Assembly (NCBI GenBank): GCA_903893795.1
Contig: CAITNO010000146.1
Location: 1-64,000, forward strand
DNA from: Candidatus Hydrogenedentota bacterium
Lineage (GTDB): Bacteria > Hydrogenedentota > Hydrogenedentia > Hydrogenedentales > CAITNO01
Length of the DNA: 64,000 nucleotides
Direction: 5' to 3'
The notes beneath the pieces were generated by a model. It saw only the letters and a list, made by a program, of their open reading frames with translations. It made no database searches and was not told the DNA's origin. Below are positions 2,240 to 43,485 of this stretch, piece by piece. The translations under genes and the position numbers were made by a program. Numbering within the stretch: the stretch's first letter is position 1; every line of letters starts with the position of its first letter.

Positions 2240-4888
2240 CTACTCCGCCAGATTCCACCCGGTGAGCGATACCTTGGGCAGGCCACCAGCAAGGGCGTAC
2301 ATGGGGACGGTGGCCGTCAGGTTGCGTGTTTCGCCGGGGAGCAGGGCAAAATAGTTGTCACTCCAGAAGGTAGGTCCCGCCTCGCGGTCGGTGGCGGTGT
2401 TGACCACTGCCAACTGAACGAGAAAGGCGATGGTGTCACCTGTGTTGTGCACGGTGACGGCCAGTTTCTTCTCGTCGTCGGCCGAGGGCAGTGACGCAAG
2501 CGTCATTTCCAGGTGCGCCGGTTTGAGGCTCTGGAGCCCGGTGAAGACGGCACGGCTCTTGGGCAGCGTGGCGTAGATGTCGCCGCGCTCAGTGTCGCGG
2601 CCGGGGATGTCAAGCGTCTTGGAGAGCCAGTAGAAGTTGTCGGACAGGGCGTTGCCGTCTTTGTCGGACAGGTCGAGGCGCAGGAACCAGGGGTCGGAAA
2701 TATTTGCCGGCACCTCTACGGCAAAGGCCTTTTCCCCGCCGTCCTCGCCGATATTCAGCCTCATGTCTTTGGCCCACACCTGCTTGCTGTCCATGTCATA
2801 CACCGCGGCGTGGAGGCTGAGTCCGGAGACGGCCTGGCGCAGGCTGTTGGTGACGTAAACGGAGTTGTCGTTGTAGGCGTAGAGCGCATGCACCGGTGTG
2901 CAGGCTTTCTTGGCGCCGTAATAGGCGGCCGTCCCGCGCAGATACCAGTCCACGTACTGCCAGGTCATGGCGGCAGGCCATGCCGCGTCGTACTTCCAGG
3001 TGGTGATGCCGGTGGCGGTATATTTGTTCTTCGCATAGGCCTCAAACATGCCGCGGGCGCTGTTGTAGTTCATCGCGTAGGCCTTGCTGCAGAAGTCGTC
3101 GAAGTTGGCCGCCTCCCCGTATTGGAGATTCATGGACTTTACCACCGCGTCAAAGTAATCGGCGCCCTGCGTGACCGTGTGGAACGACCACGCATCGGTT
3201 TTCATGGCGGGCCAAAGCTGGTCTTCGGGCATCATCTGGCGGATGCTGTCGCGGACGGCCACGATGCCGCCAATGCCGCCAGACTGGGCAAAACCCCAGG
3301 CCACGTCATGCTTGCGCTCAGTGTAATGGTAGTGAGCCGGACTGGCGTAGGTCCACAGTTCGCGCGTGCCCGTGCGGGTGCCGCCTGTCTTGAGCCGTGT
3401 GGCGATGTTGAAGGTGCCCGAGTGGGGCTGATAGGTGCGGTCCACGCGGTATTTCTCTATGAGGCCGCGGTACGCCGTGTCCAGTTTGTCCGTGGGGAAG
3501 GTCTCGTCGTGGGCGAGAAAATGGGCCAGGCAGGGATGGGTGCGCACGCGCAGCATCATGTCGTCGATGCAGGCGATGGCCAGGTCCTCGTCCAGTATGC
3601 TGCGGCCGAAGATCTGCTGCGTGACCATGACGCCCATCTCGTCGCAGAGGTTGTAGAAATCCTCCGTCTCGCGGATGGAGAAGCCCTCGGAGCGGAGCAT
3701 GTTCAGATTGGCCTCGCGGGCGTAGCGGATGAGGGCGGCGTAGCGGTCGTGGGACAGGTTGAGCATCATGTCCGAGGTCATCCAGGCCCCGCCGCGGATG
3801 AGGATGGGCTTGCCGTTGACCTGGTACTCGCGCCAGTGCTCCTTGTTGATGGACGAGGTGATTTCGCGTATGCCGAAGCGGACATGGGCCGTGTCGGACA
3901 CCTGTTTTCCGACCTTGAACTCCATGTTCATGTCATAGAGTGCCTGCGGTCCCAGGGGATGGGGCCACCACACGCGCGGGTTGGCGATGGTGAGTTCCTT
4001 GCAGGTTTCGGGATTGAAGAAGACTTCTCTGTTTTCCCCTGGTTGCAGGGTGAGTTCCTGCGCCAGCCGGATATTCTCAATGGTGGCGGACAGGGCTCCG
4101 GTGACGGGCTTGTCGGTGTTGTTGCGCGCGTAGACAGAAAGGGTCAGTTGGGCCGACACCAGGCCGGGCACGTCGAGTTTGGAGGCGGCATAGGCATGTC
4201 GCAGCGAGACGGGACCCTGCTCGCGCAGGTGCACCCCCTGCCAGATGCCCATGTTCATGTCGGGCGGCTGGGGGTTGTGGTCGTCCCAACCCGTGGTGGC
4301 CTCCACCTGCTTGGTGTGGGGCAGTTTGTCCGTGCGCAGTCCGGGCGGGATGATTTCGACGGCCAAAGCGTTGGTCTTGCCGGGCTGCAGCAGCGCGGTC
4401 ACGGGGAATTCAAAGCTGCGGAACATGCCGCGGACGGTTTCAGCGCCTGCCACGAGTTTGCCGTTCAGCCAGATATTGGCCTCGTAATTGATGCCGTCGA
4501 AGTGCAGTGTGAAGACACGGTCTCTGGCGGCGGCCGGCGCGGTGAATTCGGTGCGGTACCACCAGTGACTGCGGAAGGGGCTGTCCTCCTTCATCACCAG
4601 CCACAGGTCGGGCTGATACCCCGGAATGTTCTTGAGATTTGTGCCGTAATACGGGTCCGGATAGACCTTGTTGTCCACCAGTGCCGCGAGCACGGTTTTG
4701 GGCACGCTGGTGGGATACCAGGCGCCCGCGTCAAAACCCGGCAGGGAAATGGAGGTGCCGTCGGCCGTGATTTGTGCGGCGGACTGCAGCCGCCAGTTGT
4801 CTTTGAGGGCCAATGAAGTATCATCGGCTGTGCTCAGCGCAGTGGCCGCCAGGATGCTTGCAAACAGGCCCAAGTGTGACGTCTTCAT
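2240..4888 (-). CDS. Secreted glycoside hydrolase family 2 protein, exo-beta-glucosaminidase-like, probably altered catalytic site
   Basis: This is an 882-residue exported protein with a signal peptide (MKTSH, then a hydrophobic run, likely cut near residue 20). The architecture is that of GH2 exo-beta-D-glucosaminidases: a jelly-roll sugar-binding domain (about 50-225), an Ig-like domain (230-340), a TIM barrel (345-640) and C-terminal beta domains. In the barrel, RGGAWMTSDMMLNL and FYNLCDEMGV match the family. The general acid position reads HDE (E462). The nucleophile loop (WGFAQSGGIGG, 531-541), where relatives have F-N-x-E-T-S-x-G, contains no Glu. The ribosome site AGGAGA lies about 6 bases before the ATG. 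It is the last gene of a minus-strand glycosidase group. Family placement is confident; activity is doubtful. Confidence 0.85.
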   Translation of the reverse strand: MKTSHLGLFASILAATALSTADDTSLALKDNWRLQSAAQITADGTSISLPGFDAGAWYPTSVPKTVLAALVDNKVYPDPYYGTNLKNIPGYQPDLWLVMKEDSPFRSHWWYRTEFTAPAAARDRVFTLHFDGINYEANIWLNGKLVAGAETVRGMFRSFEFPVTALLQPGKTNALAVEIIPPGLRTDKLPHTKQVEATTGWDDHNPQPPDMNMGIWQGVHLREQGPVSLRHAYAASKLDVPGLVSAQLTLSVYARNNTDKPVTGALSATIENIRLAQELTLQPGENREVFFNPETCKELTIANPRVWWPHPLGPQALYDMNMEFKVGKQVSDTAHVRFGIREITSSINKEHWREYQVNGKPILIRGGAWMTSDMMLNLSHDRYAALIRYAREANLNMLRSEGFSIRETEDFYNLCDEMGVMVTQQIFGRSILDEDLAIACIDDMMLRVRTHPCLAHFLAHDETFPTDKLDTAYRGLIEKYRVDRTYQPHSGTFNIATRLKTGGTRTGTRELWTYASPAHYHYTERKHDVAWGFAQSGGIGGIVAVRDSIRQMMPEDQLWPAMKTDAWSFHTVTQGADYFDAVVKSMNLQYGEAANFDDFCSKAYAMNYNSARGMFEAYAKNKYTATGITTWKYDAAWPAAMTWQYVDWYLRGTAAYYGAKKACTPVHALYAYNDNSVYVTNSLRQAVSGLSLHAAVYDMDSKQVWAKDMRLNIGEDGGEKAFAVEVPANISDPWFLRLDLSDKDGNALSDNFYWLSKTLDIPGRDTERGDIYATLPKSRAVFTGLQSLKPAHLEMTLASLPSADDEKKLAVTVHNTGDTIAFLVQLAVVNTATDREAGPTFWSDNYFALLPGETRNLTATVPMYALAGGLPKVSLTGWNLAE

Positions 4889-4936: not shown

Positions 4937-4964
4937 GTCATTGCTTCGCTTCGCTCGCAATGAC
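4937..4964. repeat. Short palindromic relative of the 96-bp inverted-repeat element
   Basis: A GTCATTGC ... CGCAATGAC inverted repeat shares the end sequence of the two full 96-bp elements at 6284 and 8668. It lies in the 86-base gap between the GH2 and GH5-like genes and looks like a shortened copy. Confidence 0.7.
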
Positions 4965-4974
4965 GGATGCTCTC

Positions 4975-6283: not shown

Positions 6284-6379
6284 CGTCATTGCGAGCGAAG
6301 CGCGGCAATCACTTGGAACCAAAGCCCAGGGTCCAGGCCATTGCGAGAACGAGATTGCCGCGCTTCGCTCGCAATGACG
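6284..6379. repeat. 96-bp MITE-like element, copy 1
   Basis: Perfect 27-bp terminal inverted repeats (6284-6310 and 6353-6379; arm begins CGTCATTGCGAGCGAAG) enclose a 42-base core. The core is closely similar, in reverse orientation, to that of the copy at 8668-8763, and both copies are exactly 96 bp long. No coding capacity. It lies between the fucosidase-like and GH5-like genes. Confidence 0.9.
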
Positions 6380-6389
6380 GTGATGACGT

Positions 6390-8408
6390 TTACTCGATAA
6401 CCAGAACGTTGTGGATTTGCAGGCCGCCGATTTTCGCCTTCAGCACGCCGTTGCTCCAGGACCAGTCCAGTCCCGCCTCGTCGGGGGCCAGGAAGCAGCG
6501 CTTCGGTTTTTCGGGCATGGGGACGGTGACCGTGAAAGTACCGGCGTCGGGCACCTGCTCCACCATGTGGCGGCTGGGGGAGAGGTAGCCGCCGGTGGAG
6601 CGGTTGACGAACTGAATGAGCGTTTTGCCGTCTTTCTTGCGCGCGGCCATCTCGACCCACCACGGTCCGTCGACGTGGATGAGCGGCGTCACGTCAAGTG
6701 CGTTGAGCATGTCGCCGATGAACCTGCGCAGACCGGGATAGTGCCCGGCGAGGTAGGCGTCGAAGATGTCGCCGTAGGCGGCGGTCACCATGCCCTTGCC
6801 CACGCGGTTGCGCGTGGCGGCGGGGAAGTCGCGCTTGTCCAACTGCGGGTCGCGCTCGGAGAGCATCACGGCCAGGGTCTCGGCGGTGGTGGGCTTGGTC
6901 GGCTGGAACGGTCCGCAGGCATTGACTGACTCGCCCTGCACGGGAAGCCACCCGCCCTGGGGTGCTTCGGCGCGCTTTTCCACACCAGCGATGTCAGCGT
7001 ACTGGTCGGCCACAAAGGTGCCGCTTAGGACCAGTTTGCCGCCGTTGGTGACGTATTCCTTCAGTTTGGCCTTCAGGCTGTCGGGCACATTCTTGGCCTC
7101 GGGCACGATCACCACCGGATATTCGGACAGATGGGCCGACAGGGTTTCCTCGTTGAGAATGTCGGCGCTGTAGCCGTTTTCGAGCACGGCGTGCAGCGCG
7201 CCTTCCATGGCGCGGTTGGCGCGGCCGAAGTTGTACAGCGGGTCGTTGAACTCATAGTAGGAGCTTTCGCTGTGCAGAATCGCCACCTGGGGGATGGTCT
7301 GCGTCTTGTGGCAGAACTGCTGGCGCTTGCGGCAGAACTGGGCCACCTGTGCCAGCACGTCCTGGTGCCATTCCAGGAGGCGGCCGGAGCGCACCGGTGT
7401 GTCGTAGATGAAAATGGACCCGCCCTGCGCCAGCACGGTGGCCAGTTCCTGGCACATGTGCGGCACGGTCTTGAAAGTCCAGCCCTGTTCGCCAGTCTGC
7501 AGGAAGCTCCAGGCCATCAGGTCCCAGGGCTTGCCGCGGCTGCCCATGAACCGCGCCTCGGCCATGGCCCGTTCCGCGCCGAAGGAGGGGTCAAAATCGC
7601 CGCTGAGATAGTCGATCGGCGCCTGCATTTGTTCCGGCTGGCGCACGCTGTACATCCAGTTGCTGGTGACCATGCAGGTCGGTTTCGCCTGGTGAACTGC
7701 TTCGACGTAGCGCGTCACGTGCTGGACAAACAGCTCGCGGTTGAATTGGAGCCACTCCTGCCAGTGCGCGTCACTGGATTTCTTCGGGATTTCGGCGATG
7801 CCTGTCTTCTCGGTGAATGCCTTCTGGCAGGCGTCGCTCCAGTCGGGTTTGCAGGCCCAGTTCTCTCCATCAATCCACATGCCGTCGATGTCATACTCCT
7901 TGACGACCTCCAACAACTGCGGAATGAGCAGTTCCTCGTCGTACTTGCTCATACGGCTTGTGTTGTTGGGGTCGGGCTTGCCGTTGGCATTGATGCGCGC
8001 CCATTCGGGGTGCAGTTCAATCGCGCGCGTGTCCCACACGCCGGAATAATGGATGGACAGCGGGATGCCCATGTCCTTCGTCACCTTGCGCCAGACCTTG
8101 AGCGCGTCGTTGACGATGCCCGGCGAGGGCGAGCCCACCTTGGTGGGATACCCGGCATAGCCGGGATGCCCCTTGCAGTCGTACTGCACAAAGTCGGGCT
8201 TCACGAGGTCCAGCATCGCGCGGATGTGCTCTTCGGTCGTTTCCCGTCCCAGTTCCGTGTCCTTGGCACCGGCGTGCAGGTCGTAGTGCAGGCCGAAAAA
8301 GGCATTCTCGTGCCAGTTCGGCGGTGCGGCCTTCTCCTCCGCAGCGCAAACGCCGCCAGCCACAGCGACCATCGCCCAAACACCCAGCATTGCCGTAATA
8401 CGATTCAT
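6390..8408 (-). CDS. Secreted alpha-L-fucosidase-like glycosidase with beta-galactosidase-trimerisation-like domain
   Basis: This is a 672-residue exported protein. The signal peptide covers residues 1-22 (cleavage after VCA). The catalytic barrel (about 30-400) begins with WHENAFFGLHYDLHA and contains DGMWIDGENW, whose D180 occupies the usual nucleophile position of GH29-type fucosidases. Residues about 410-530 resemble the GATase-like trimerisation domain of GH42 enzymes (VVIVPEAKNVPDSLKAKLKE). A beta domain closes the protein. The start at 8408 is chosen over an upstream ATG because AAAGGAA precedes it and the signal peptide starts there. It is the first of three minus-strand glycosidases. 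Specificity is uncertain: GH29, GH42-like or another GH-A-related family. Confidence 0.78.
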   Translation of the reverse strand: MNRITAMLGVWAMVAVAGGVCAAEEKAAPPNWHENAFFGLHYDLHAGAKDTELGRETTEEHIRAMLDLVKPDFVQYDCKGHPGYAGYPTKVGSPSPGIVNDALKVWRKVTKDMGIPLSIHYSGVWDTRAIELHPEWARINANGKPDPNNTSRMSKYDEELLIPQLLEVVKEYDIDGMWIDGENWACKPDWSDACQKAFTEKTGIAEIPKKSSDAHWQEWLQFNRELFVQHVTRYVEAVHQAKPTCMVTSNWMYSVRQPEQMQAPIDYLSGDFDPSFGAERAMAEARFMGSRGKPWDLMAWSFLQTGEQGWTFKTVPHMCQELATVLAQGGSIFIYDTPVRSGRLLEWHQDVLAQVAQFCRKRQQFCHKTQTIPQVAILHSESSYYEFNDPLYNFGRANRAMEGALHAVLENGYSADILNEETLSAHLSEYPVVIVPEAKNVPDSLKAKLKEYVTNGGKLVLSGTFVADQYADIAGVEKRAEAPQGGWLPVQGESVNACGPFQPTKPTTAETLAVMLSERDPQLDKRDFPAATRNRVGKGMVTAAYGDIFDAYLAGHYPGLRRFIGDMLNALDVTPLIHVDGPWWVEMAARKKDGKTLIQFVNRSTGGYLSPSRHMVEQVPDAGTFTVTVPMPEKPKRCFLAPDEAGLDWSWSNGVLKAKIGGLQIHNVLVIE

Positions 8409-8585
8409 GTGGATTCCTTTCCATGCGGGAAATGCCCTTTCCCGTCGTGCCGAGCAGAAAGCATACCGAAACCCGCCTCGCGCTTCCAGCGGCGGAAAAG
8501 AGCCGCCGTTTGATTCCGCCAAAGCGGCCCGTTATCCTTTTGCCCGTAGTGGCAGTTGCGGGGAAAGTTGAAGGAGTGGTTTTGT

Positions 8586-8667: not shown

Positions 8668-8763
8668 CGTCATTGCGAGCGAAGCGCGGCAATCTCGTCC
8701 TCGCAATGGCCCGGACCCTGGGCCGTAGTTCCAAGAGATTGCCGCGCTTCGCTCGCAATGACG
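8668..8763. repeat. 96-bp MITE-like element, copy 2
   Basis: Terminal inverted repeats at 8668-8694 and 8737-8763 are identical to those of copy 1. The core is related to the reverse complement of the copy-1 core, so the two elements sit in opposite orientation about 2.3 kb apart and bracket the fucosidase-like gene. Confidence 0.9.
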
Positions 8764-8912: not shown

Positions 8913-9101
8913 TTGCCGGGGTGTCGGCATGGCTTGCCGAAGTCTCGGTAGGACTTGCCGGGGTATCGGCAGGGCTTTCCGGGGCGTCGGTGGGGTTTTC
9001 CGGGGTATAGGTAGAGTCTGCCGGAGTGTCGGTAGGTGCTACCGGAGTTTCGGCAGGTGCTGCCGGGGTGTTGTTACGAACTACCAGGGTGTCGGCACGG
9101 G
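8913..9101. repeat. Degenerate 21-bp tandem repeat, 9 units plus a partial
   Basis: Nine units of exactly 21 bases run head to tail (starts at 8913, 8934, 8955 and so on), with consensus near YTGCCGGGGTGTCGGYAGGNN. The period is a multiple of three. Read on plus, it gives heptads like CRGVGRA; read on minus, heptads like TPASPTE. Neither reading has a convincing gene around it: a plus frame from ATG 8848 to 9174 is open, while the minus frame lacks a start codon. The array lies just upstream of the FN3 protein gene. It may be a coding remnant or a structural repeat. Confidence 0.85.
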
Positions 9102-9178
9102 CTTCCGAAAGGGCCTTTTCGGCGGTATGGACCGCCGCAAGGGTGACTTAAGTCATTTAGCAAAAGGGAGATAGGGCC

Positions 9179-9787
9179 ATGGCAAGGTTTCCAGAGGGTG
9201 AGGCGGAGATTGTGAGCCTCGCACAGAGCATCGCAAGCGGTCTGGCGGTCAACATCGCGCTGTACAACACCTCGCCGGTGAGTCCGGCAGCCCTCCAGGC
9301 GGATTTGGACGGGTTTATCAGCGCCCGGAGCGCGGTCACGAACGGTCGGGCATCGCTCAAGCAGTCCGTGACCTCCAAGAATGACGCCCTCAAGCTGCTG
9401 GTGGACGACATGAAATCGATCCTGCGCTACGCCGAGAACACCGCCCACTACGACGATGCCAAACTGAAACTGCTGGGCTGGGGCGGACCCGCCGCGGCCA
9501 GGGCGCTGGTGCCGCCCGGACAGTGCCGCATCCTCGAAGCACCCCGGCAGGGCGAGGGATGGGTCTTCCTGGACTGGAAACAGCCGGCCGACGGCGGCGC
9601 CGTCGCCAGCTACAAGATACAGCGGCGGCTGCGCGCCGGGGGAACCTGGCACGACGTCGGGCTGGCCATGGAAAGCGAAACCACGCTCCATGATCAGGAG
9701 CGCGGCAAGGAATGGGAATACCAGGTCATCGCGGTGAACAAGGCGGGGGAGGGCCCGCCGAGCAACACCGTCATGGCGGTATTGTGA
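9179..9787 (+). CDS. Fibronectin type III domain protein
   Basis: This is a 202-residue protein without a signal peptide. Residues 1-105 are mostly helical, with no family recognised. Residues about 113-202 form one FN3 domain, with VFLDWKQPADGG, SYKIQRR and YQVIAVNKAGEGPPSN as characteristic strands. FN3 domains are usual in extracellular or adhesion proteins, yet no export signal is visible here, so the location is open. The ribosome site GGGAGATAGGG lies just before the ATG. It stands alone between the tandem array and minus-strand genes. Confidence 0.75.
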   Translation: MARFPEGEAEIVSLAQSIASGLAVNIALYNTSPVSPAALQADLDGFISARSAVTNGRASLKQSVTSKNDALKLLVDDMKSILRYAENTAHYDDAKLKLLGWGGPAAARALVPPGQCRILEAPRQGEGWVFLDWKQPADGGAVASYKIQRRLRAGGTWHDVGLAMESETTLHDQERGKEWEYQVIAVNKAGEGPPSNTVMAVL

Positions 9788-9799
9788 AAGGATGAAGGC

Positions 9800-9905
9800 T
9801 GAAGGGCAAGGGCTAAAGAGCGAAGAGTGAAGTATCGTCCGTCCTTGTTCTCCTTGCCCTTCGCCCTTCGCCCTTTGCACTTCGTACTTCGTACTTCTTT
9901 GCACC
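9800..9905. repeat. Low-complexity imperfect inverted repeat of AAGGGC/GCCCTT units
   Basis: GAAGGGCAAGGGCTAAAGAG is mirrored by TTGCCCTTCGCCCTTCGCCC, followed by CACTTCGTACTTCGTACTTC. The spacing allows a large, loose hairpin after the FN3 gene. It may act as a transcription end or be an interspersed repeat; neither can be proved here. Confidence 0.5.
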
Positions 9906-10469: not shown

Positions 10470-12167
10470 CTAGAACTTTTCGAGGTTGTTCTTCTTTTCA
10501 TCCTGCTTTTGTCGTTCTGCTGCCTGTGCCTTCTCCTTCAGTTCCTCAAAAGCCCGGATATTCACGTAGTATTGGACCCTCTTGATTCGATCATAATGAA
10601 GTTCCTCCGTCTTGCCGAGCCACTCTGCCCTCTCCGACGTTAGGCTCGTTGGCGCGCCGTACTTGCTAACCAATTTTGCGTAGAGCGGGTCTTCGTCACC
10701 AAGCTTGTCAGCGCTGTAAGCAGCGGCAATGGATATCGCCATTGGTTCTCCGCTGTCCACGCCGAAGAAAAAAGACGCTTCACTGAAGGGTTCCTTTAGT
10801 GATACCGAGAAACCTCTTTCATAAGGCCTGCCGGCAATGGTAGTCCTGACAACCCACTGCGGCACATCAAAAATGACGTTTTTGTTGAAGTCCCTCACAC
10901 CATTTAGGAGGCCACTTGCGCCCAGTTTTTGCTCAACAGACTCAGGTGTTTCCCTAAAGGTAATGCCCAATGGATTGAACGTGATATCAGTCCGCACCGG
11001 CTCAACAGCCGTGGCCTCTGGTCCTTTTTCCTCGGCAGCCCCCACCTTGTTCGCTTCTGATCCTTCCGCGCCAGGGCCGACCCCAGAGTCATTAGACGGA
11101 TTCAATGAAGTTGACAGCAGCAGCTGGAAAGTCACGGGCTCTGGCTTGTTCGCATAAACATGCTGAAGCATTACCGAATTCTCATCGGGCTGAGCGTTCG
11201 TTTCACTCACACCCGTGTCTTTGTTTATGCCCTTGACTTCAATCCCGCTGTATTTGACCTCAAACGTGTCCCCGCCGGTGCTTATTGCGAACTGCACGAT
11301 GAAGGTCAACTCAACCTTGCCTTGACTAAATATGGCTTTTGCCTTCTTGACCAAATCCTCCGTCAGTGTCATTCCTTCCAGTTCCGCACCCACAAATTTG
11401 TCGTAATCAAGGTGCCCCCTGAACTGGACTGTCTTTCTATTCTGCGAATCCTTGATCATTGACCACTCACGGTTAGCGAAGTATCCGTAACCGTCGAGCG
11501 CATCGCCGACCGTTACCGACTTGTCAATTGCCAAGGTTCCACTCTTGACAGCTTTCACCGATGGATCCTTGGAGTCTTTGGCCGTGGTGACCCTACTTTT
11601 GGCCACTTTGGCTTCCGCTCGGGAGGATCCGGGACGCGGTGGCGCAGTGTTCTCGAAATACGGCTGGAACAGGATAAATCCGACAAGTACAGCCAAGACC
11701 ATGCTCACGGGTATGGCAATCAGTTTTCGGGTTCCCTGCCGTAACAAGAGGTAGAGCGGAAAAATCCAATAGTACAGAAGCCCACCTCCAACGACCCAGA
11801 GTATCACCTTGTTGCGCGGTATCTGGCGCTTAATCGCGTCCATGAGAAGAAAAGTTAAGCATGCGATCATCAGGAGGAGGCTAGACTGCCAGCCGATGAT
11901 CGCGAATCGAGCCAGAACGCCCGTGGTCGCTGTGGCAAGAAATAGAGTCCAACCGACAGTAGTTACAATTCGGAATCCCGGCGACGGCGCTGCTTGCTGC
12001 GTTGATTGAACCGGGGGAGGTGGTGCCGCCGGTTCCTCGGCCGGGGTATCAGGCAGTCTTTGAATAACGACAGCCGCACCACATTTGTTACAGCGCCCCG
12101 TTGTGCCCGCATACTCATCCGGTATTGACAACTGCTGTCCGCACTTCTCACATACTTGACAAATCAT
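10470..12167 (-). CDS. Zinc-ribbon membrane protein of unknown function
   Basis: This is a 565-residue protein. The N-terminus is a zinc ribbon (C6-x2-C9 and C26-x2-C29, with an extra C3), then a Pro/Ala-rich linker to about residue 60. Around five membrane helices follow between about 65 and 185. The remaining 380 residues are polar, probably facing one side, with a Glu/Lys-rich coiled C-terminal end. The ribosome site GGAGGGAA lies 8 bases before ATG 12167. Zinc-ribbon plus membrane plus long unknown domain is a common layout for uncharacterised proteins in planctomycete-like genomes. No enzyme motif is visible. Confidence 0.65.
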   Translation of the reverse strand: MICQVCEKCGQQLSIPDEYAGTTGRCNKCGAAVVIQRLPDTPAEEPAAPPPPVQSTQQAAPSPGFRIVTTVGWTLFLATATTGVLARFAIIGWQSSLLLMIACLTFLLMDAIKRQIPRNKVILWVVGGGLLYYWIFPLYLLLRQGTRKLIAIPVSMVLAVLVGFILFQPYFENTAPPRPGSSRAEAKVAKSRVTTAKDSKDPSVKAVKSGTLAIDKSVTVGDALDGYGYFANREWSMIKDSQNRKTVQFRGHLDYDKFVGAELEGMTLTEDLVKKAKAIFSQGKVELTFIVQFAISTGGDTFEVKYSGIEVKGINKDTGVSETNAQPDENSVMLQHVYANKPEPVTFQLLLSTSLNPSNDSGVGPGAEGSEANKVGAAEEKGPEATAVEPVRTDITFNPLGITFRETPESVEQKLGASGLLNGVRDFNKNVIFDVPQWVVRTTIAGRPYERGFSVSLKEPFSEASFFFGVDSGEPMAISIAAAYSADKLGDEDPLYAKLVSKYGAPTSLTSERAEWLGKTEELHYDRIKRVQYYVNIRAFEELKEKAQAAERQKQDEKKNNLEKF

Positions 12168-12241
12168 CGCATGTTCCCTCCGTTTGACTCTGGCGTGGCA
12201 AAGAGGCGGGAAAACAGAGGAGCGCGGCAACTGACCACGCT

Positions 12242-12355
12242 CCACGCAGGGACTTCCACATCCCACCGGAAAACGCAGTGTCGACCGCGCTCCAAACGGA
12301 GCGCGTCGAGCACTTGCGCGGTATTCCGGTCATGCAATGTGGAAGTTTTGCGTGG
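12242..12355. repeat. 114-bp imperfect hairpin element
   Basis: The whole segment folds on itself. Outer arms CCACGCA...ACTTCCACAT...CCGGAA pair with their mirrored partners at 12324-12355. The inner part ends in a perfect GCGCTCC-AAAC-GGAGCGC hairpin. It lies in the gap between the divergent zinc-ribbon membrane gene and leuC. It could be a MITE-like unit or a structured RNA; no ORF is present. Confidence 0.7.
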
Positions 12356-23068: not shown

Positions 23069-24727
<1,659 letters not shown>

Positions 24728-35180: not shown

Positions 35181-35233
35181 GCGATGAGTGATTGTGAAAC
35201 TTTCGGCAGAGCCAGGTTTTCTTGGAGGCAGAT

Positions 35234-38200
35234 ATGCGCGTTCATAAATACATTTGTCTTGCGGCAATGAAGGCACCCCACGTCATGTATTCAAATCGAT
35301 CCATTTTCAAGAGCCGTCCTGTTTCGTCGAGCCAACTGAGAACAGGAAGTCTTACGGGCCTGAACCTTGCGTTCAAGTGCGCAGTGCTCATGGCGTTCAT
35401 CGGTGCGGCAGCAACGTCTCCCGCTTGGGCGGCGCCGGTGGGTGAGAAAGCGATTTCAACGGCGTTCGTCGTGAATCTGCCGTTGACTGGCGGTGTGCCC
35501 ACGGTCCAAGTGGAGTTCGAGTCGGCAATGGATCTGAGCACAGTTATACCGGCCAACTTCTTCGTAAGCGACAGGACGAATGCCAGCCTGCCCCTGGGGA
35601 CGCTCACCATTCATCCTGATATGGTTGCCGGCAAGACAGGGCCTGACCCAAGCCGCCCAGGTTTGGATTTCTCGCCCAACACCTACTGGCTGACTTGGAA
35701 TTCGGGAGAAATGCTTCAGGGCCAGTTGGGAAAAGTCATTGTCAACAGCATGAAAGAGCTCTCGGGCACGCCTGTTCCTGATGGAACCCTTTATTGGGTC
35801 ACAGGCAAGGGCATAGCACCAACGGCGAATTCACTTGTGCTGAACACCCCATCCAATCCGACGGGTGCCACCTTGGTTCCTCTTACGGTGGTGTTCAGTG
35901 AACCGGTCCAGAATTTCGACATCAGTGACCTGGTGTTCTCGCCCTCCACGGGAGTGTCGTACAACGGTCCGTTCATTACCGGTGGACCCACCACCTATTC
36001 GATTGAATTTCGCTCCGTGACAGTAAGCGGCAATGGCACGGGTACAATTTCATGTGCTTTCGCCTCCTCACCGGCCATACAGGACCTTGCGGGCAACCCG
36101 CTGGTGACGCCGGTCACACTGCCCACCGTGGTTGTCCAGTTGGACCGTGTTCAACCCTATGTGGTCTCGGTCACCTGTCCCAGCCCAACGAACAACCCCC
36201 AGTTCACGATTACCTTCAACAAGGATGTGCTGGCCTTTAATGACCCTGCAACCGACCTGACGATTACCAAGGGGGTGAGTTCCACGCTGGACTGGACCGG
36301 CGTGACCTTGACCGGCGGTCCCCGTGTGTACACGGTGGGTTTCCAAGGCATAGTGGGGTCGGGCGCCCTCTCGCTGAAGGTCAATGCCTCCGACATTCAT
36401 GATTCGGCCCTCAGCGCACTATCCTCCACCGGGAGCCAGGTTACGGTAACGGTGGACACGGTGCAGCCCAGGGCGGTGGCCATCAGCCCGACCAACGGCA
36501 ACGGTCCCACCAGCGCCACGTCGATTGGCTTTACGGTGCAGTTCGACAAGCCCGTCTATGGATTCGTACCCGCTGACCTTGCGGTGAGCGGAGCCGGTGT
36601 CAATTACACCGGTGCGCAGATTTACGGCAACGACGGCGACACCACCTGGAGTGTCCAGGTCACCGGGGTGTCTGGTGATGGCACCATGGTGTTGCGGGTC
36701 AAGACAGGGGACCAGGGCGGCGTCGCGCACGACCAGGCGGGCAACAAGCTCTATTCGAGCGTGAGCAGTTCGGGCGTCATTATCGACAACACGGGGCCCC
36801 GTGTCACCGACATCACCAGTCAGAGCGGCAATTATGTCCAGGGCGGCGCGGTTCCCTTCACGGTCACCTTTAATGAGGCGGTGAAACAGTTTGACGCCGC
36901 CAACGACTTGGTGATCACGACGACGGGTTCGGTCAGTTATGCCGGCATCGCCATCCAGGGCGGCCCGCAGACGTGGACCGTGTTCGTGGCCGGCATGTCC
37001 GGCGAAGGGACGATCACGCTGGCGGTAAACATTCATTCCAACGTGTGCGACCTGAGCAACAACCAGATCCTGTCCAGCGTGACGAGCGCTCCGGTCAACG
37101 TCGACATCACCCGGCCCCGCGCCACGGCCATTACACCGGTGACGGCCAACCCCACGCACAGCACCTCGGTGAGTTTCTCCGTGCATTTCAGTGAGAGCGT
37201 GAAAAACTTTACGGATGCGACCGACCTCGTGATTGCCGAAACGCAGACCGTAGGCCATACCGGCGCGACGATCTCGGGCGGACCGCAGGACTACACCGTG
37301 AGTCTCACGGGTGTGCATGGAACAGGCACGATTTCCCTGGCGGCAAACACGGTTGCGGACATTAAAGACCAGGCGGGCAACCAGCTCGATTCGAGTGTTT
37401 TCAGTGTTCCGCTGACCGTCGACAACACCCTTCCCACCGTGACCGTGAACTCGCTCGTAACGAAGAGCCAGACTCCCACACTGGGCGGCTCCGCGGGCGA
37501 CAACTTCGGGGTGGCCTCTGTCAGTGTCACCGTAAACGGCACCACCCATGCCGCTTCGTTCGATATCGGTTCCGGCACGTGGAGCATAGCGTGGCCCGAC
37601 ACCCTGCCGCAGGGCGTTTATGATGTTGCGGCCACGGTGACCGACACGGCCGGAAACACGGCGGGGGACAGCACCAGCGGCGAATTGACGGTGGACCTCA
37701 CCCCGCCGACGGTGACCGTGACTTCGCAGTTGACGGGCGACAGGACCCCCTTCATCTCGGGCACCGTGAGCGACAATGTCGGGGTGAGTTCGGTGACCTT
37801 CACCGTCAACGGTGTCACCTACAATGCAACTCTGTCGGGCGGTGCCTGGAACGGCCAGGTGACGAACCAACTGCCGGCCGTGGACCAGCAGTATGACGTG
37901 GTGGTCACGGCCACGGACACTGCCGGAAATGTGGGCCATGACGCCACCACCAACGAACTCACTTTCAGCACCAGTGTGCCGACGGTTTACGTCAACAACC
38001 TGTTCACCAGCAACACCTCGCCGACCATCACCGGTTCCGTGGTGTTCACCCCCCCGGCGACGGGCGTTTCCAGCGTGAGTGTCGTCGTTCACGGGCAGAC
38101 CTACAGCGCGGTGCTGGCACCGCCCTCAGGCAGCACGGTGGCGTGGACGGCGCATGTGACTGAAGTGCTGCCGGAGGGGATTTATGACGTTGCGGCGCAT

Positions 38201-39196
38201 ACGGTGGACAATGTGACCCGTCCGGGAACGGACGGTTCGACCAATGAACTGACCGTCGACACGCACGGACCTGCGGCCACATTCTCCCTGCTCGAAGGCT
38301 CTCCCACCAACGAGGACGTTCTTCATGTTACGGTCACCTTCAACGAAGCGCTGGCCTCGCCCCTGGACGGCAGCGGTGTGACGCTTACCGGCACACTGAA
38401 GGATGCGGTGAGCTTTGATGTCAGCGGCGCCGCCCCGGCGTACACCGTGACCATTACCATGAACGACCCGAATGCCGACGGCACCCTTGGCGTGCAGATT
38501 AACCCGACGGTCACCGACAGGGCGCTCAACGCTTATGCCGGTGCCGCCTCACCGGACTGGTCGGTCAGCAATTGGATGGGCTTTACGGTCCATCCGCAGA
38601 CTGCGGGCGCCTACGATGGGAGCCCGCACAGCTTCCACGTGGAGGCCAGTTTTGGCACCAGCACCCCAGTGTATGCGTGGAAATGGAACGACGGAGCGAA
38701 GTCCATCCTTGATGTGGGCACCGATTCCCCGGACTTGGTCATTCCCGACGTGACCGGCAAGGCCGGCTCTTATTGGTGCGATGTCACCTACGACGGCGTC
38801 ATCTACTCATCCAACAAGGCCACGCTCTTTGTTGCGGCCCGTCCTTCCATCGCGCAGGAACCGCAGGATGAAACAAGGATGGTCGGCGAGCGTTGCGACT
38901 TCTCCGTCGTGGCGGAGGGAGGTTTCCCGCCGCTCGCCTATGAATGGTGGAAGGACGGCGCGCGGATTAGCAATGCCACCGGCAACTCGCTGAGCATAGC
39001 GAAGGTGGAGCATAAGGACGCTGGAAGCTATCAGGTAATTGTGTCGGATGTGCTGGGCACCTCGGCCTCGTCCACCCTTGCCACCCTGGTGGTGAGCGGA
39101 CAGCCCGTGCCTGTCGCCGGCCTGGGCGGATTGGCGGTGCTCGCGGGCCTGTGCGCGTTGATGGGATGCCGCCCGGGTTCGGGTCGCAAGAAATAG
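35234..39196 (+). CDS. Giant secreted Ig-like surface protein A with C-terminal sorting tail
   Basis: This is a 1320-residue protein. An extended signal peptide of about 66 residues ends AWA|AP. The body holds an SbsA-type Ig-like domain (about 80-160), then about five bacterial Ig-like repeats of roughly 100 residues, each ending in a VDxxxP linker (190-740). Three further Ig-like units follow (VTVNGVTYNATL type, 740-1030). The last are two Ig domains, including WWKDGARISNATG (1110-1285). The tail at 1292-1320 is VPVAGLGGLAVLAGLCALMG plus a basic end. GGAGG sits 5 bases before ATG 35234; a TTG 12 bases earlier is also open. It is first of three giant genes behind a strong promoter. A cell-surface adhesin or structural layer role is inferred. 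Confidence 0.85.
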   Translation: MRVHKYICLAAMKAPHVMYSNRSIFKSRPVSSSQLRTGSLTGLNLAFKCAVLMAFIGAAATSPAWAAPVGEKAISTAFVVNLPLTGGVPTVQVEFESAMDLSTVIPANFFVSDRTNASLPLGTLTIHPDMVAGKTGPDPSRPGLDFSPNTYWLTWNSGEMLQGQLGKVIVNSMKELSGTPVPDGTLYWVTGKGIAPTANSLVLNTPSNPTGATLVPLTVVFSEPVQNFDISDLVFSPSTGVSYNGPFITGGPTTYSIEFRSVTVSGNGTGTISCAFASSPAIQDLAGNPLVTPVTLPTVVVQLDRVQPYVVSVTCPSPTNNPQFTITFNKDVLAFNDPATDLTITKGVSSTLDWTGVTLTGGPRVYTVGFQGIVGSGALSLKVNASDIHDSALSALSSTGSQVTVTVDTVQPRAVAISPTNGNGPTSATSIGFTVQFDKPVYGFVPADLAVSGAGVNYTGAQIYGNDGDTTWSVQVTGVSGDGTMVLRVKTGDQGGVAHDQAGNKLYSSVSSSGVIIDNTGPRVTDITSQSGNYVQGGAVPFTVTFNEAVKQFDAANDLVITTTGSVSYAGIAIQGGPQTWTVFVAGMSGEGTITLAVNIHSNVCDLSNNQILSSVTSAPVNVDITRPRATAITPVTANPTHSTSVSFSVHFSESVKNFTDATDLVIAETQTVGHTGATISGGPQDYTVSLTGVHGTGTISLAANTVADIKDQAGNQLDSSVFSVPLTVDNTLPTVTVNSLVTKSQTPTLGGSAGDNFGVASVSVTVNGTTHAASFDIGSGTWSIAWPDTLPQGVYDVAATVTDTAGNTAGDSTSGELTVDLTPPTVTVTSQLTGDRTPFISGTVSDNVGVSSVTFTVNGVTYNATLSGGAWNGQVTNQLPAVDQQYDVVVTATDTAGNVGHDATTNELTFSTSVPTVYVNNLFTSNTSPTITGSVVFTPPATGVSSVSVVVHGQTYSAVLAPPSGSTVAWTAHVTEVLPEGIYDVAAHTVDNVTRPGTDGSTNELTVDTHGPAATFSLLEGSPTNEDVLHVTVTFNEALASPLDGSGVTLTGTLKDAVSFDVSGAAPAYTVTITMNDPNADGTLGVQINPTVTDRALNAYAGAASPDWSVSNWMGFTVHPQTAGAYDGSPHSFHVEASFGTSTPVYAWKWNDGAKSILDVGTDSPDLVIPDVTGKAGSYWCDVTYDGVIYSSNKATLFVAARPSIAQEPQDETRMVGERCDFSVVAEGGFPPLAYEWWKDGARISNATGNSLSIAKVEHKDAGSYQVIVSDVLGTSASSTLATLVVSGQPVPVAGLGGLAVLAGLCALMGCRPGSGRKK

Positions 39197-39274
39197 CGCA
39201 AACATAAAACGGCAAACAAAATGAGTCTCCCGAAAGCGTCCCCTGAGATGGCGCGGGAGACAGGGACGCATGGC

Positions 39275-42200
39275 ATGAATCTTGGCAAACGGTTTGGCGG
39301 AGGGTGGAGTGTGAATGGGATTGCACGCGCGGCATGCGCGGTGCTGCTGTTGGGAGGCGCCGTTTCCGCGGCGGCAAGCATATACGACAGTGACGGTTAT
39401 CTGGGCAACCTGATTCTGGACGGAGTGAACATCAGCTCCGTCACCATAGACACGGACCAACCGTCCATTTTCGACACCACGGCCGGCAGACATGTCGGCC
39501 TGTTCTTCGGAACGCACGAAGGCGGTGTGGCCGTGTTCCGGTTTGCGGACGTGGTTGTGGCGCCTTCGGTTGTGATTACGACGGTAGGTTCCGCTCCCTG
39601 TTCCATCGTGTCCAGTACAGACATGTATTGGGGGGCCTCGCTTGACGCGTCGGCGCCTGCCGCGGGCGCCCTTTCACGGCTTGGCGGCGGCAACGGCGGC
39701 AAGGGCGGCAATGGCGGAAAAGGCGGCGACGGCGGCAAGGGCGGAAAAGGCGGCGACGGCGGTATTGGCGGCGCGGGCGGCGCGGGCGGCACGAAGCTTG
39801 GGGGCGGCGCCGGTAATGGCGAAAACGGCGGCATCGGCGGAGCGGGCCTTGGCGGCGGCACCGGTGACAGCGCGGCCGGCGCGGGCACACTCGGCGCCGA
39901 CGGTACTGCGGGTGCCGCGGGCACACTCGGCTTTGGCGGCAATAGTGCCGCCGGTGCGGGTGCGGGCGGTGCAAAAGGCAACAACAGCAACGGCGTTGCA
40001 GGCGGCGCGGGCGGCGGTGGAGGCACGGCAGGGGCCGGTGGCACCGCCCAGAACAGCGTGGGCCTTGGCGGCAATTACGGAACCCCCAGCGGCAACAACG
40101 GCCTGAACGGATATGTGGGCAAACCGGGCGTCAACGGCGGCAATGGCGGCGTGTCGGCAAAGGCCGCCGGCAAAGTCGGCGGAAACGGCGGCAATGCCGT
40201 GTACGCCAGCATCGCCGGTGCGGCCAATTCACTCACGCTGGTGGCCGGCAATGGCGGTGGTGGTGGCGGTGGTGGCGGCGGTGGTGGTGGCGGTGGTGGT
40301 GGTGGCGGCGGTGGCGGCGGCGGCGGATCTTCCGGCGGCGGCGGTGGCGGTGCGGGCGAGAGTGGCACTTCCGTTTCCACGGGTGGCGGCGGCGGCGGCG
40401 GTGCGGGCGGCGGCGGTGCCGGTGGTGGCAGCGCGGGTACCGCGGCGGGTGGCGGTGGCGCAGGCGGCAGTGGAACGCAAATTGGTGAAAACGGCGGTGC
40501 GGGCGGCTTGGAAGTTTTGGTGCCCAGTGCGGGCACCGCTCCCATCGGTGTTGCCGGTGACGGCGTGGGCGGCGTTTCAAGCACCGTTGCCTGGCCTGCG
40601 GCCCCCTTGGGCGGCGCGGGCGCGGCGGGCGGTGCGGGTGGCGCGGGCGGCACGGGCGGCACGGGCGGTATCGGCGGCACGGGTTCCACGGGCGCATCAG
40701 GCGGTGGATCTTTTGTGCTGGCAGCCAAGGGATTGCTCAAGATAACCGGCCCGGCACTGTTTAACGTGTCCGCCGGTGTTCCGGTTACAGGCAGTACGGG
40801 CGGTGCTGGCATACTTCCCTCTGCGGGCGCGGCGGGCGCCAAGGGCGGTTTGCGCGGCGCCAAGGGTGCCGGTGGCACTGACGGCGTCAGTGCAGGTGGT
40901 ACCGGTGGATTTTCAGCGCAGTCGCCCGACGGCACATCGGGCGGTTTGGGCGGCAGCGGCGGCACCGGTGGTGTAGGCGGCACGGGCGGCACGGGCGGCA
41001 CAGCCGGCTGCGGCACGCCCGGCATGGTCAAACTGCAGGGTTCTGTAGTGCTTGCAGGACAGGCCACAGTGACCGGCCAGAATGCCCTGAGTGCGGCGCC
41101 AAACCAAAACGGCGCATGCACCATCATTTCAAACATGACCGACGCGGCGCGCAACGCGAACAAACCCACCCTGGGTTCCGGCGCGGCATTTGACGTCCCG
41201 GTGCTTGGCGCAGCGCGCAATGACGCTTTCCTGACCGTATCGAACAACGCACCCTATCAGTCCTCGGGCGGTGTCGCCTATCCCCTCATTCCCATGCTTG
41301 TTGGCGGACCGGCCGTGCATGGGTGGTGCGTGGATCAGTATTGGAACAAGAGCGACGTGGACTTGGCCATTCCCACCACAGGGAATGTCGAATACACCGT
41401 GCTGACATCCTCCACGACACCGGCCAGCGCATTTGCGGGCTTTGACCAGCTTGTCATAAAGAACACGGGCGCCACGACGGCCTCCGATGTCCGGGTGCGG
41501 GTGGATTCGGGCAACAGCAATTTCATCGACGGCAGCGGCGGCACCGTGGGCGAACTGGGTCCCGGTCAGGTGTGGACAACCACCGTTGTGGCCGGCACGA
41601 CGGTCGGCGCAGGCGTGCTTTCGATAGTGGGCCAGCCCCTGTCGCAAACGGCGAATCCTGATGACCCCGTCACGTTCACTGTAACGGCGCTGGGAAACAG
41701 TATCCAGTACCAGTGGTACAAGGACAGCGTTCTGATTCCGGGCGCCACCGCGTCCACGCTCAGCTTTGCAGCAAAGAAGGCCGACCAGGGCTCCTACCAG
41801 TGCTTCCTGTCCAATCCGGCAGGAACGGTGAAGACGAACATTGTCACGCTCATCGTCAACAATCCGCTGCGCTTTGTGGTTCAGCCGCCGTCTACTGTCG
41901 TTGTTCCCTACCATGGGACATTGAATCTTTCCGTTGTTGCGGCGGGAACGCCGCCGATCACCTACCAGTGGCGCCAGGGAACGGTGGACATCCCGGGCGA
42001 AACATTGTCGTCCTATTCACGTCCGACGATGGAGGCCCGCGATGCGGCGGACTATTTCTGCCAGGTGACCAATGTGACAGGCCATCTTGATTCGCAGGCC
42101 ATCCATGTGACGGTGGCAGACCCGGCCATCACCCAGGACCCCGCCAATCAGTCTCGCCTGGGTGGTCTGGGATGGAAGGCAACTTTCTCTGTGACGGCCA

Positions 42201-43330
42201 GCGGCTCCGGCTTCCTCACCTACCACTGGCTGAAGAACGGCGTGAACTTTAATCTTCCGCTGGACCCGCGCGTCAGCGGCGTGGACACGCCAAACCTGAC
42301 GATATCCGATGTCACCACGGCGGATGATGACCAGACCAACTACAGTTGCATTGTCGGCGGTTCGGGACCCGACGCGGAGTCAAAACCCGCGACGCTTTCG
42401 GTGAACGACCATCTGGCCATCCTGGTGCAGCCGATTTCCACCGCAGTGGCTCCAGGCACTGTGACGGCCGACCCCGACTGGACTTTCGAGTGCATTGGCG
42501 CTGGAGCGGGCGACATCAACCTGAACTACCAGTGGAGAAAAGACGGCCAGGACATTCTCGGCGCCAATGGCATCCACTTTATCGTTCCCTATGCCCGGTA
42601 TGAAGACCAGGGCACCTACACCTGCGCGGTGTCGAACAGTTACGGCACCGTCGTTTCCAATCCTGTTCTGTTCGGGGTGAACGGCGCGATCATCACGTTC
42701 GTCGCACAGCCCGTGAGTGTCATGCGCTATGTCGGTGAATTCGCGGCATTCTCCGTTGAGGGTGTGGTCGGCGGTTACGGCGACCCCGTGTACCATTGGA
42801 AATTCGACAATGGCCAGAAATCCATCACCGACATCGGCGGCAATGTGCCCGAGCTGTTTGTCCAGAATCTGACACTGGACAATGCCGGGACCTATTATTG
42901 TGAAGTGACGGACCTTTCGCCCTTTACCTACAGGTCGGACAGCGCCACACTGGCCATTGGCGATCCGCTCGTCATGGAGACACAACCGCAGGGCGGCACG
43001 CGGGACGAGTTTGACTCCTTCACCTTTACGGTCGGCGTCACCGGCGGCGTGGGCCGGCTTTCCTATCAGTGGGAAAAGGAAAATGTTGTGATACCGGGCG
43101 CCACGGCGGCCTTCTACCGAATCGCGAAGTTGTCGGCCAAGGACGAGGGTTCGTACACGGTGTCCGTGGTGGACGAGCATACGGGCAATCTTCAGTCGGT
43201 CCCGGCCGTGCTCCATGTGACGATACTCTGGCGGACGCCTTTGTTTGGCGGTGCGGTGGGCCTTGCGGGCGCCGCGTCGCTGGTGGCAGTGGCGGCGATT
43301 GCCCGCCTTCGAAAGAGACACGCAAAATAG
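39275..43330 (+). CDS. Giant secreted Gly-rich/Ig-like surface protein B
   Basis: This is a protein of about 1351 residues. The signal peptide MNLGKRFGGGWSVNGIARA continues through a hydrophobic run cut after VSA. A short beta domain (30-130) precedes a glycine-rich PGRS-like region (about 137-582), with tracts of GGNGGKGG type and a run of over 20 glycines. Around residue 480 the pattern is interrupted by GGGSFVLAAKGLLKITG, and it ends with TPGMVKLQGSVV. Six Ig-like domains follow (about 779-1315, for example IQYQWYKDSVLIPGATASTL). The tail TPLFGGAVGLAGAASLVAVA ends RLRKRHAK. The start at ATG 39275 is chosen for AGGGA spacing; ATG 39221 lacks a ribosome site. It is paralogous to the first half of protein C. 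Confidence 0.83.
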   Translation: MNLGKRFGGGWSVNGIARAACAVLLLGGAVSAAASIYDSDGYLGNLILDGVNISSVTIDTDQPSIFDTTAGRHVGLFFGTHEGGVAVFRFADVVVAPSVVITTVGSAPCSIVSSTDMYWGASLDASAPAAGALSRLGGGNGGKGGNGGKGGDGGKGGKGGDGGIGGAGGAGGTKLGGGAGNGENGGIGGAGLGGGTGDSAAGAGTLGADGTAGAAGTLGFGGNSAAGAGAGGAKGNNSNGVAGGAGGGGGTAGAGGTAQNSVGLGGNYGTPSGNNGLNGYVGKPGVNGGNGGVSAKAAGKVGGNGGNAVYASIAGAANSLTLVAGNGGGGGGGGGGGGGGGGGGGGGGGGGSSGGGGGGAGESGTSVSTGGGGGGGAGGGGAGGGSAGTAAGGGGAGGSGTQIGENGGAGGLEVLVPSAGTAPIGVAGDGVGGVSSTVAWPAAPLGGAGAAGGAGGAGGTGGTGGIGGTGSTGASGGGSFVLAAKGLLKITGPALFNVSAGVPVTGSTGGAGILPSAGAAGAKGGLRGAKGAGGTDGVSAGGTGGFSAQSPDGTSGGLGGSGGTGGVGGTGGTGGTAGCGTPGMVKLQGSVVLAGQATVTGQNALSAAPNQNGACTIISNMTDAARNANKPTLGSGAAFDVPVLGAARNDAFLTVSNNAPYQSSGGVAYPLIPMLVGGPAVHGWCVDQYWNKSDVDLAIPTTGNVEYTVLTSSTTPASAFAGFDQLVIKNTGATTASDVRVRVDSGNSNFIDGSGGTVGELGPGQVWTTTVVAGTTVGAGVLSIVGQPLSQTANPDDPVTFTVTALGNSIQYQWYKDSVLIPGATASTLSFAAKKADQGSYQCFLSNPAGTVKTNIVTLIVNNPLRFVVQPPSTVVVPYHGTLNLSVVAAGTPPITYQWRQGTVDIPGETLSSYSRPTMEARDAADYFCQVTNVTGHLDSQAIHVTVADPAITQDPANQSRLGGLGWKATFSVTASGSGFLTYHWLKNGVNFNLPLDPRVSGVDTPNLTISDVTTADDDQTNYSCIVGGSGPDAESKPATLSVNDHLAILVQPISTAVAPGTVTADPDWTFECIGAGAGDINLNYQWRKDGQDILGANGIHFIVPYARYEDQGTYTCAVSNSYGTVVSNPVLFGVNGAIITFVAQPVSVMRYVGEFAAFSVEGVVGGYGDPVYHWKFDNGQKSITDIGGNVPELFVQNLTLDNAGTYYCEVTDLSPFTYRSDSATLAIGDPLVMETQPQGGTRDEFDSFTFTVGVTGGVGRLSYQWEKENVVIPGATAAFYRIAKLSAKDEGSYTVSVVDEHTGNLQSVPAVLHVTILWRTPLFGGAVGLAGAASLVAVAAIARLRKRHAK

Positions 43331-43392
43331 GACGACCGCCCTCGGACGCCCCCTTTTGTCGAGATAGTATCTGATGAATGATCGAGTATCTG

Positions 43393-43411
43393 CCGGGAGT
43401 GTGACTCCCGG
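43393..43411 (+). promoter_or_regulatory. Perfect leader hairpin before protein C
   Basis: CCGGGAGT-GTG-ACTCCCGG is an 8-bp perfect stem with a 3-base loop in the 155-base gap after protein B, with no T-run after it. It could be an mRNA stability element or processing site between the second and third giant genes. Confidence 0.5.
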
Positions 43412-43485
43412 TGGACTCGCTGGAACCCGAACCAGCCCGGGAGCCTTTCGCCGGAGATCTTCAACATTTCGGGAGAGATGAGGAT

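Follow-up and report, generated by a model that had tools for sequence, protein, structure and literature searches.

A GH2-like clade, sister to GH2_16, in which the loop-7 nucleophile glutamate is replaced by serine and an Asp-Glu pair occupies the acid/base site

In glycoside hydrolase family 2 (GH2), the Glu in loop 7 that acts as the nucleophile is invariant across the subfamilies of a 2025 survey, and replaced acid/base residues have been described in GH2_19 and GH2_21 (PMC12243196). The residue that precedes the acid/base is close to the C2 substituent of the sugar in the −1 subsite; its identity tracks the chemistry at C2, and the GH2 clades whose substrates are modified at C2 have it altered (PMC12243196). 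The beta-N-acetylhexosaminidases of GH20 work without an enzyme nucleophile: within the motif His/Asn-X-Gly-X-Asp-Glu (PMC11308363), the Asp holds the acetamido NH, the Glu is the acid/base and the carbonyl of the substrate is the nucleophile (PMC9016705). In the GH112 galacto-N-biose phosphorylase, whose barrel is related to those of retaining hydrolases, phosphate is bound where, on superposition, the related GH42 hydrolases have their nucleophile (PMC8106489). Among open-licence papers, we found neither a nucleophile-less GH2 clade nor a substrate-assisted enzyme of clan GH-A.

The window, by which we mean the whole 64,000-nucleotide stretch of DNA that was analysed, encodes a GH2-like protein of 882 amino acids that belongs to a nucleophile-less sister clade of GH2_16. 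Its gene (2240..4888, on the (−) strand, as are all of its features given below) is an undamaged ORF with an ATG start and a GGAG-like sequence immediately 5' of it. Pfam assigned GH2 sugar-binding, GH2 sandwich, Mannosidase_ig and Ig_GlcNase domains. A predicted Sec signal peptide with a hydrophobic core (residues 1–22; 4823..4888) is followed by a galactose-binding-like domain (PF22666, residues 32–217; 4238..4795), the (beta/alpha)8 catalytic barrel (residues ~341–665, approximate limits from the secondary structure; 2894..3868) and the Ig-like C-terminal domain Ig_GlcNase (PF18368, residues 772–880; 2249..2575). A signal-peptide-like hydrophobic N-terminus was present in all 42 clade sequences checked with a simple hydropathy rule.

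The best solved relatives are the entries of CsxA, the GH2_16 exo-beta-D-glucosaminidase of Amycolatopsis orientalis (PDB 2vzs and others), which phmmer aligned with residues 31–880 at 1e-104. CsxA structures were also the top Foldseek matches (TM 0.85, ~28% identity), followed by GH2 beta-mannosidases. The protein shares the full-length multidomain layout of CsxA, including Ig_GlcNase; it is related to the exo-glucosaminidases over its full length, as had been claimed in the preliminary description. Glu541 and Asp469 are the established catalytic pair of CsxA, whose PDB entries include E541A and D469A mutants. In the nucleophile region, CsxA GGAWSFNSETSAG stands opposite VAWGFAQSGGIGG of the window protein, with AWSFNSETSAG aligned to AWGFAQSGGIG and Glu541 opposite Ser536 (codon TCT, 3281..3283). 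In the acid/base region, CsxA HPSVISFHIGSDFAP stands opposite HPCLAHFLAHDETFP, and Asp469 is opposite Glu462 of an HDE motif. The preliminary description was therefore right, in its residue numbering as well, that the nucleophile Glu is missing and that the acid/base position keeps an acidic residue; it had left the site to Ser536 or Gln535, of which Ser536 stands and Gln535 does not.

The strand beta7/loop 7 segment AWGFAQSGGIGG (residues 530–541; 3266..3301), which forms the nucleophile loop, contains no acidic residue in the window protein or in any other clade member of the alignment (n = 44). A first AlphaFold model, built with 15 close orthologues, reached a pLDDT of 75.8, with the active-site loops below 50; a second, built with 65 diverse homologues, had a mean pLDDT of 92.7 and a pTM of 0.93. 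In the second model, with residues placed by strand and alignment, the barrel strands bear the key residues at the positions that GH2 requires: beta2 (397–400, then E401), beta4 (454–460, then D461-E462), beta7 (533–537, which contains S536) and beta8 (627–630, then W631). Neither the alignment nor the model offers an invariant acidic residue in place of the nucleophile; another Glu or Asp at that position in a structural alignment is what the preliminary description had named as speaking against it.

A scan of the window protein against ~85,000 genomes yielded 14 orthologues (52–85% identity), mostly from Hydrogenedentota or Hydrogenedentes. Within the phylum of the window, a match was present in 41 of 68 genomes, 27 of the 38 of good quality and 24 of 44 genera, with effectively one gene per genome; the gene was present throughout f1, the family to which the window belongs (17 of 17 genomes), and missing from family f4. 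An orthologue also occurred in a small phylum (three genomes). In Planctomycetota, the phylum of the sequence L021, a sample of 392 genomes contained a true orthologue only in L021's own genome.

Position 536 was Ser in 44/44 distinct clade sequences versus Glu in 26/26 other GH2 homologues and in 12/12 GH2_16-type sequences, CsxA included, the latter set being defined by CsxA and the SD/Glu signature, not by a CAZy classifier. This distribution rules out chance or sequencing error, and we regard the loss of the nucleophile throughout the clade as close to certain. Since the assembly behind the window is a draft in 159 contigs, an artefact of sequencing, assembly or gene decay in a single genome could be suspected; it is ruled out by the recurrence of the motif in 44 distinct orthologues and by pairwise dN/dS values of 0.10–0.26 in the clade, well below 1. 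The only internal stop in the clade sequences was a single TAG in G053, a partial copy.

Purifying selection on the clade is strong. Ser536 is among the slowest sites of the whole protein (site rates on a tree of 12.6 substitutions/site), and the catalytic loops have mean site rates of 0.08–0.20 versus a whole-protein mean of 1.14. Ser536 is encoded by all four TCN codons across the clade, showing that the codon varies while the residue is fixed. In the IQ-TREE phylogeny, the clade is monophyletic and lies outside the GH2_16-type set, likewise monophyletic, as its sister (UFBoot 100 for each and for their union); the FastTree topology agrees on the clade and on this sisterhood. The most likely history is a single loss of the beta7 nucleophile on the clade stem, with a rebuilding of the −1 pocket. 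In two genomes (G859 and G860), a clade member coexists with a canonical GH2_16-type paralogue carrying GSD and FNTETSPG (L106 and L105, respectively), indicating that the protein without the nucleophile does more than stand in for the normal enzyme.

We compared the pocket of the clade with that of GH2_16. The equivalents of CsxA Arg399, Glu401, His570 and Trp631 are kept (R399, E401, H570 and W631). Strand beta2/loop 2 (R399-S400-E401; 3686..3694) retains both the Arg, which at this position assists the nucleophile in other GH2s (PMC12243196), and the Glu that replaces the loop-2 His in GH2_16, E401 being found in 44/44 members. Unlike CsxA, the clade has DE instead of SD at the acid/base site, a shorter loop 3 (TQQIFGR, T423–R429; 3602..3622) in which the GH2_16 Trp has become Thr, and a loop 6 that reads GTRTGTRELWT in place of GVKMxGPYD. 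The D461-E462 pair in loop 4 (3503..3508) is present in 44/44 members, whereas all 12 GH2_16-type sequences have SD and most GH2s have NE; the general GH2 feature of a loop-4 Glu or Asp is hence kept, and the strict SD motif of GH2_16 and the loop-7 Glu of GH2 are not. The context of the pair is G-H-D-E in the clade and A-H-D-E in the window's genus. L062 shows an intermediate-looking combination, the nucleophile Glu together with MDE at the acid/base site.

The clade-invariant changes comprise S to D461, D to E462 and G to H460 on the acid/base side, and W to T423, K to G507, Y to W512 and M to K632 in loops 3, 6 and 8, in addition to N to A534, T/S to Q535, E to S536 and G537 from a residue that is mostly T, in the nucleophile loop. 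R406, R429, R505 and H489 are also invariant in the clade; R505, K632, H460 and H489 are new relative to CsxA, and K632 is common in other GH2s as well. H489 is the clade-specific residue of the conserved loop 5 (YQPHSGTF, 486–493; 3410..3433), R505 and W512 are invariant residues of loop 6 (TGGTRTGTRELWTYASP, 501–517; 3338..3388), and K632 adjoins the −1 subsite Trp631 in strand beta8/loop 8 (GITTWKYDAAWP, 627–638; 2975..3010). Three of the replacements, W423T, E536S and T537G, empty the pocket. Judged by this conservation, the pocket is functional and rebuilt, not decayed, and the protein probably carries out its chemistry or binding in a new way.

We tentatively favour, at rather less than an even chance, a retaining glycosidase with substrate-assisted catalysis that would act on a terminal beta-linked 2-acetamido sugar. 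The putative substrate would be GlcNAc- or GalNAc-like and might bear an anionic decoration. The leaving group would receive its proton from Glu462, and the residue preceding it, Asp461, would position and polarise the NH of the 2-acetamido group. C1 would be attacked by the acetamide carbonyl, coming from the room that the Glu-to-Ser536 replacement and the Gly-rich loop have made, and an oxazoline would form, as it does in GH20. The invariant Y520, W512, W531 and W631 are candidates for the acetamide Tyr and aromatic cage. An Asp at position 461, the removal of the nucleophile and the emptied space below C1 together would reproduce the GH20 arrangement, in which an Asp adjoins the acid/base Glu and the enzyme supplies no nucleophile; at the sequence level this combination is present. 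Consistent with such a mechanism, the pair is invariant, G-H-D-E resembles the GH20 G-x-D-E, the pocket is emptied and the nearest relatives act on 2-amino sugars. In addition, the gene goes with the presence of GH20 genes, which were found in 35 of 41 gene-bearing genomes versus 8 of 27 others (Fisher 6e-6, a test that ignores phylogeny and is confounded), although this association may merely mirror a carbohydrate-rich lifestyle.

GH20 is nevertheless a separate family (the Pfam search of the 882-amino-acid protein gave no match to PF00728), and the likeness is confined to a local motif, for which we propose convergence. A motif this short can arise by chance, L062 combines a DE pair with a retained nucleophile Glu, and R406, R429, R505 and K632 hint at an anionic ligand and would be needless for plain GlcNAc. 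A further-reaching form of the substrate-assisted reading seems to us somewhat unlikely: that the clade would be the first clan GH-A lineage to have dropped its protein nucleophile for 2-acetamido substrate assistance, a GH2 glucosaminidase having been converted naturally, on the same scaffold, into a GH20-like hexosaminidase by the Glu-to-Ser and SD-to-DE changes.

The same conserved pocket would be kept by a binder, and the barrel may have turned into a secreted protein that binds glycans or has a regulatory role and cleaves no bond, much as the Klotho proteins derive from GH1. The nucleophile is gone in all members with no invariant acidic substitute, and the operon partner is not conserved, both of which fit a pseudoenzyme. 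However, the acid/base residue of a binder would be expected to drift, whereas Glu462 and Asp461 match structural residues in their invariance, and all catalytic loops evolve 5–15 times more slowly than the mean. The invariant pair thus favours, without proving, another mechanism over a pure binder, and we consider a pseudoenzyme somewhat unlikely.

The vacated site could instead hold a water molecule for a one-step displacement with Glu462 as the acid, as in an inverting hydrolase; the carboxylate of Glu401 or Asp461, or Gln535/Ser536, would then activate the water. E401, the GH2_16 residue near C2/C3, is invariant, and the nucleophile-to-Ser/Gly variants of retaining enzymes known as glycosynthases accommodate a ligand on the alpha face (PMC8950772). 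We regard this possibility as unlikely, as E401 was inherited from enzymes that use it for C2/C3-side binding and the alpha face bears no new invariant carboxylate: three members have Q or L in place of E510, and D528 is variable; both were rejected as substitute nucleophiles. A third candidate, E407, was rejected because it is common to half of the canonical GH2_16-type sequences, which keep the normal Glu.

These residues also bear on a possible retaining mechanism in which the nucleophile would be a carboxylate moved in from another position; Glu401, Glu407, Asp461 or Glu510 might serve as such on the alpha face. GH2_21 is thought to have moved its acid/base role to another Glu (PMC12243196), a precedent indicating that relocation occurs in GH2. 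Given the distribution of E510 and E407, the lack of acidic residues in 530–541 and the confident placement of S536 on beta7, such a relocation appears very improbable. Scarcely more probable is an inverting glycoside phosphorylase, in which phosphate would occupy the vacated site through R399, R505, K632, H489 and S536, with Glu462 as the acid. GH112 reuses its nucleophile site in this way (PMC8106489), and the clade offers new invariant Arg, Lys and His residues together with a Gly/Ser-rich beta7 loop. GH112 is, however, a different family of phosphorylases, and the window protein has a predicted signal peptide. Known phosphorylases are cytoplasmic, where the sugar phosphate is retained; the signal-peptide-like N-termini of the clade point elsewhere and disfavour this alternative.

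Taken together, the sequence observation is solid and the mechanism is offered as a hypothesis. GH2_15, which includes beta-N-acetyl-hexosaminidases, and the mannosidases of GH2_13 and GH2_17 are, like the clade, part of GH2 group II (PMC12243196), but all of them retain the beta7 Glu nucleophile. With a large clade lacking the loop-7 Glu, labels such as beta-glucosaminidase, mannosidase or galactosidase cannot safely be assigned by automatic annotation. The clade is a natural experiment in the change of mechanism of a retaining glycosidase, and its Ser-bearing site resembles those of engineered glycosynthases. If active, its members would show in what way nucleophile-dependent and substrate-assisted (or other) catalysis are interconverted; if inactive, they would constitute a widespread secreted pseudoenzyme with mostly vertical inheritance and a putative ligand.

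In the window's genus, a GH29/GHL6-like gene with a GH42-type trimerisation domain (6390..8522, (−)), a GH5-like gene (PF00150; 4975..6243, (−)) and then the nucleophile-less gene lie in this order on one strand, and these glycosidase neighbours suggest polysaccharide degradation. The GH29/GHL6-like gene stands beside the gene only in this genus, and the GH5-like gene, immediately upstream, adjoins it only there and at L028. As the neighbours are conserved only within or near the genus and differ elsewhere, the context cannot name the substrate of the clade. The gaps flanking the three glycosidase genes contain five copies of a REP-like repeat, CGTCATTGCGAGCGAAGCG(AA/CG)GC (4943–4965, 6284–6379 and 8668–8763), with none expected by chance; two of the sites are inverted pairs with equal spacing. 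Three further ORFs of the window had no Pfam match at 1e-4 (9074–9904, 276 amino acids; 10470–12266, 598 amino acids; 23075–24724, 549 amino acids; all (−)). On the (+) strand, 86–1009 encodes a MerR/HTH_17 DNA-binding domain fused with a response-regulator receiver domain, and 35222–50874 contains three consecutive very long ORFs of 1324, 1369 and 2487 amino acids.
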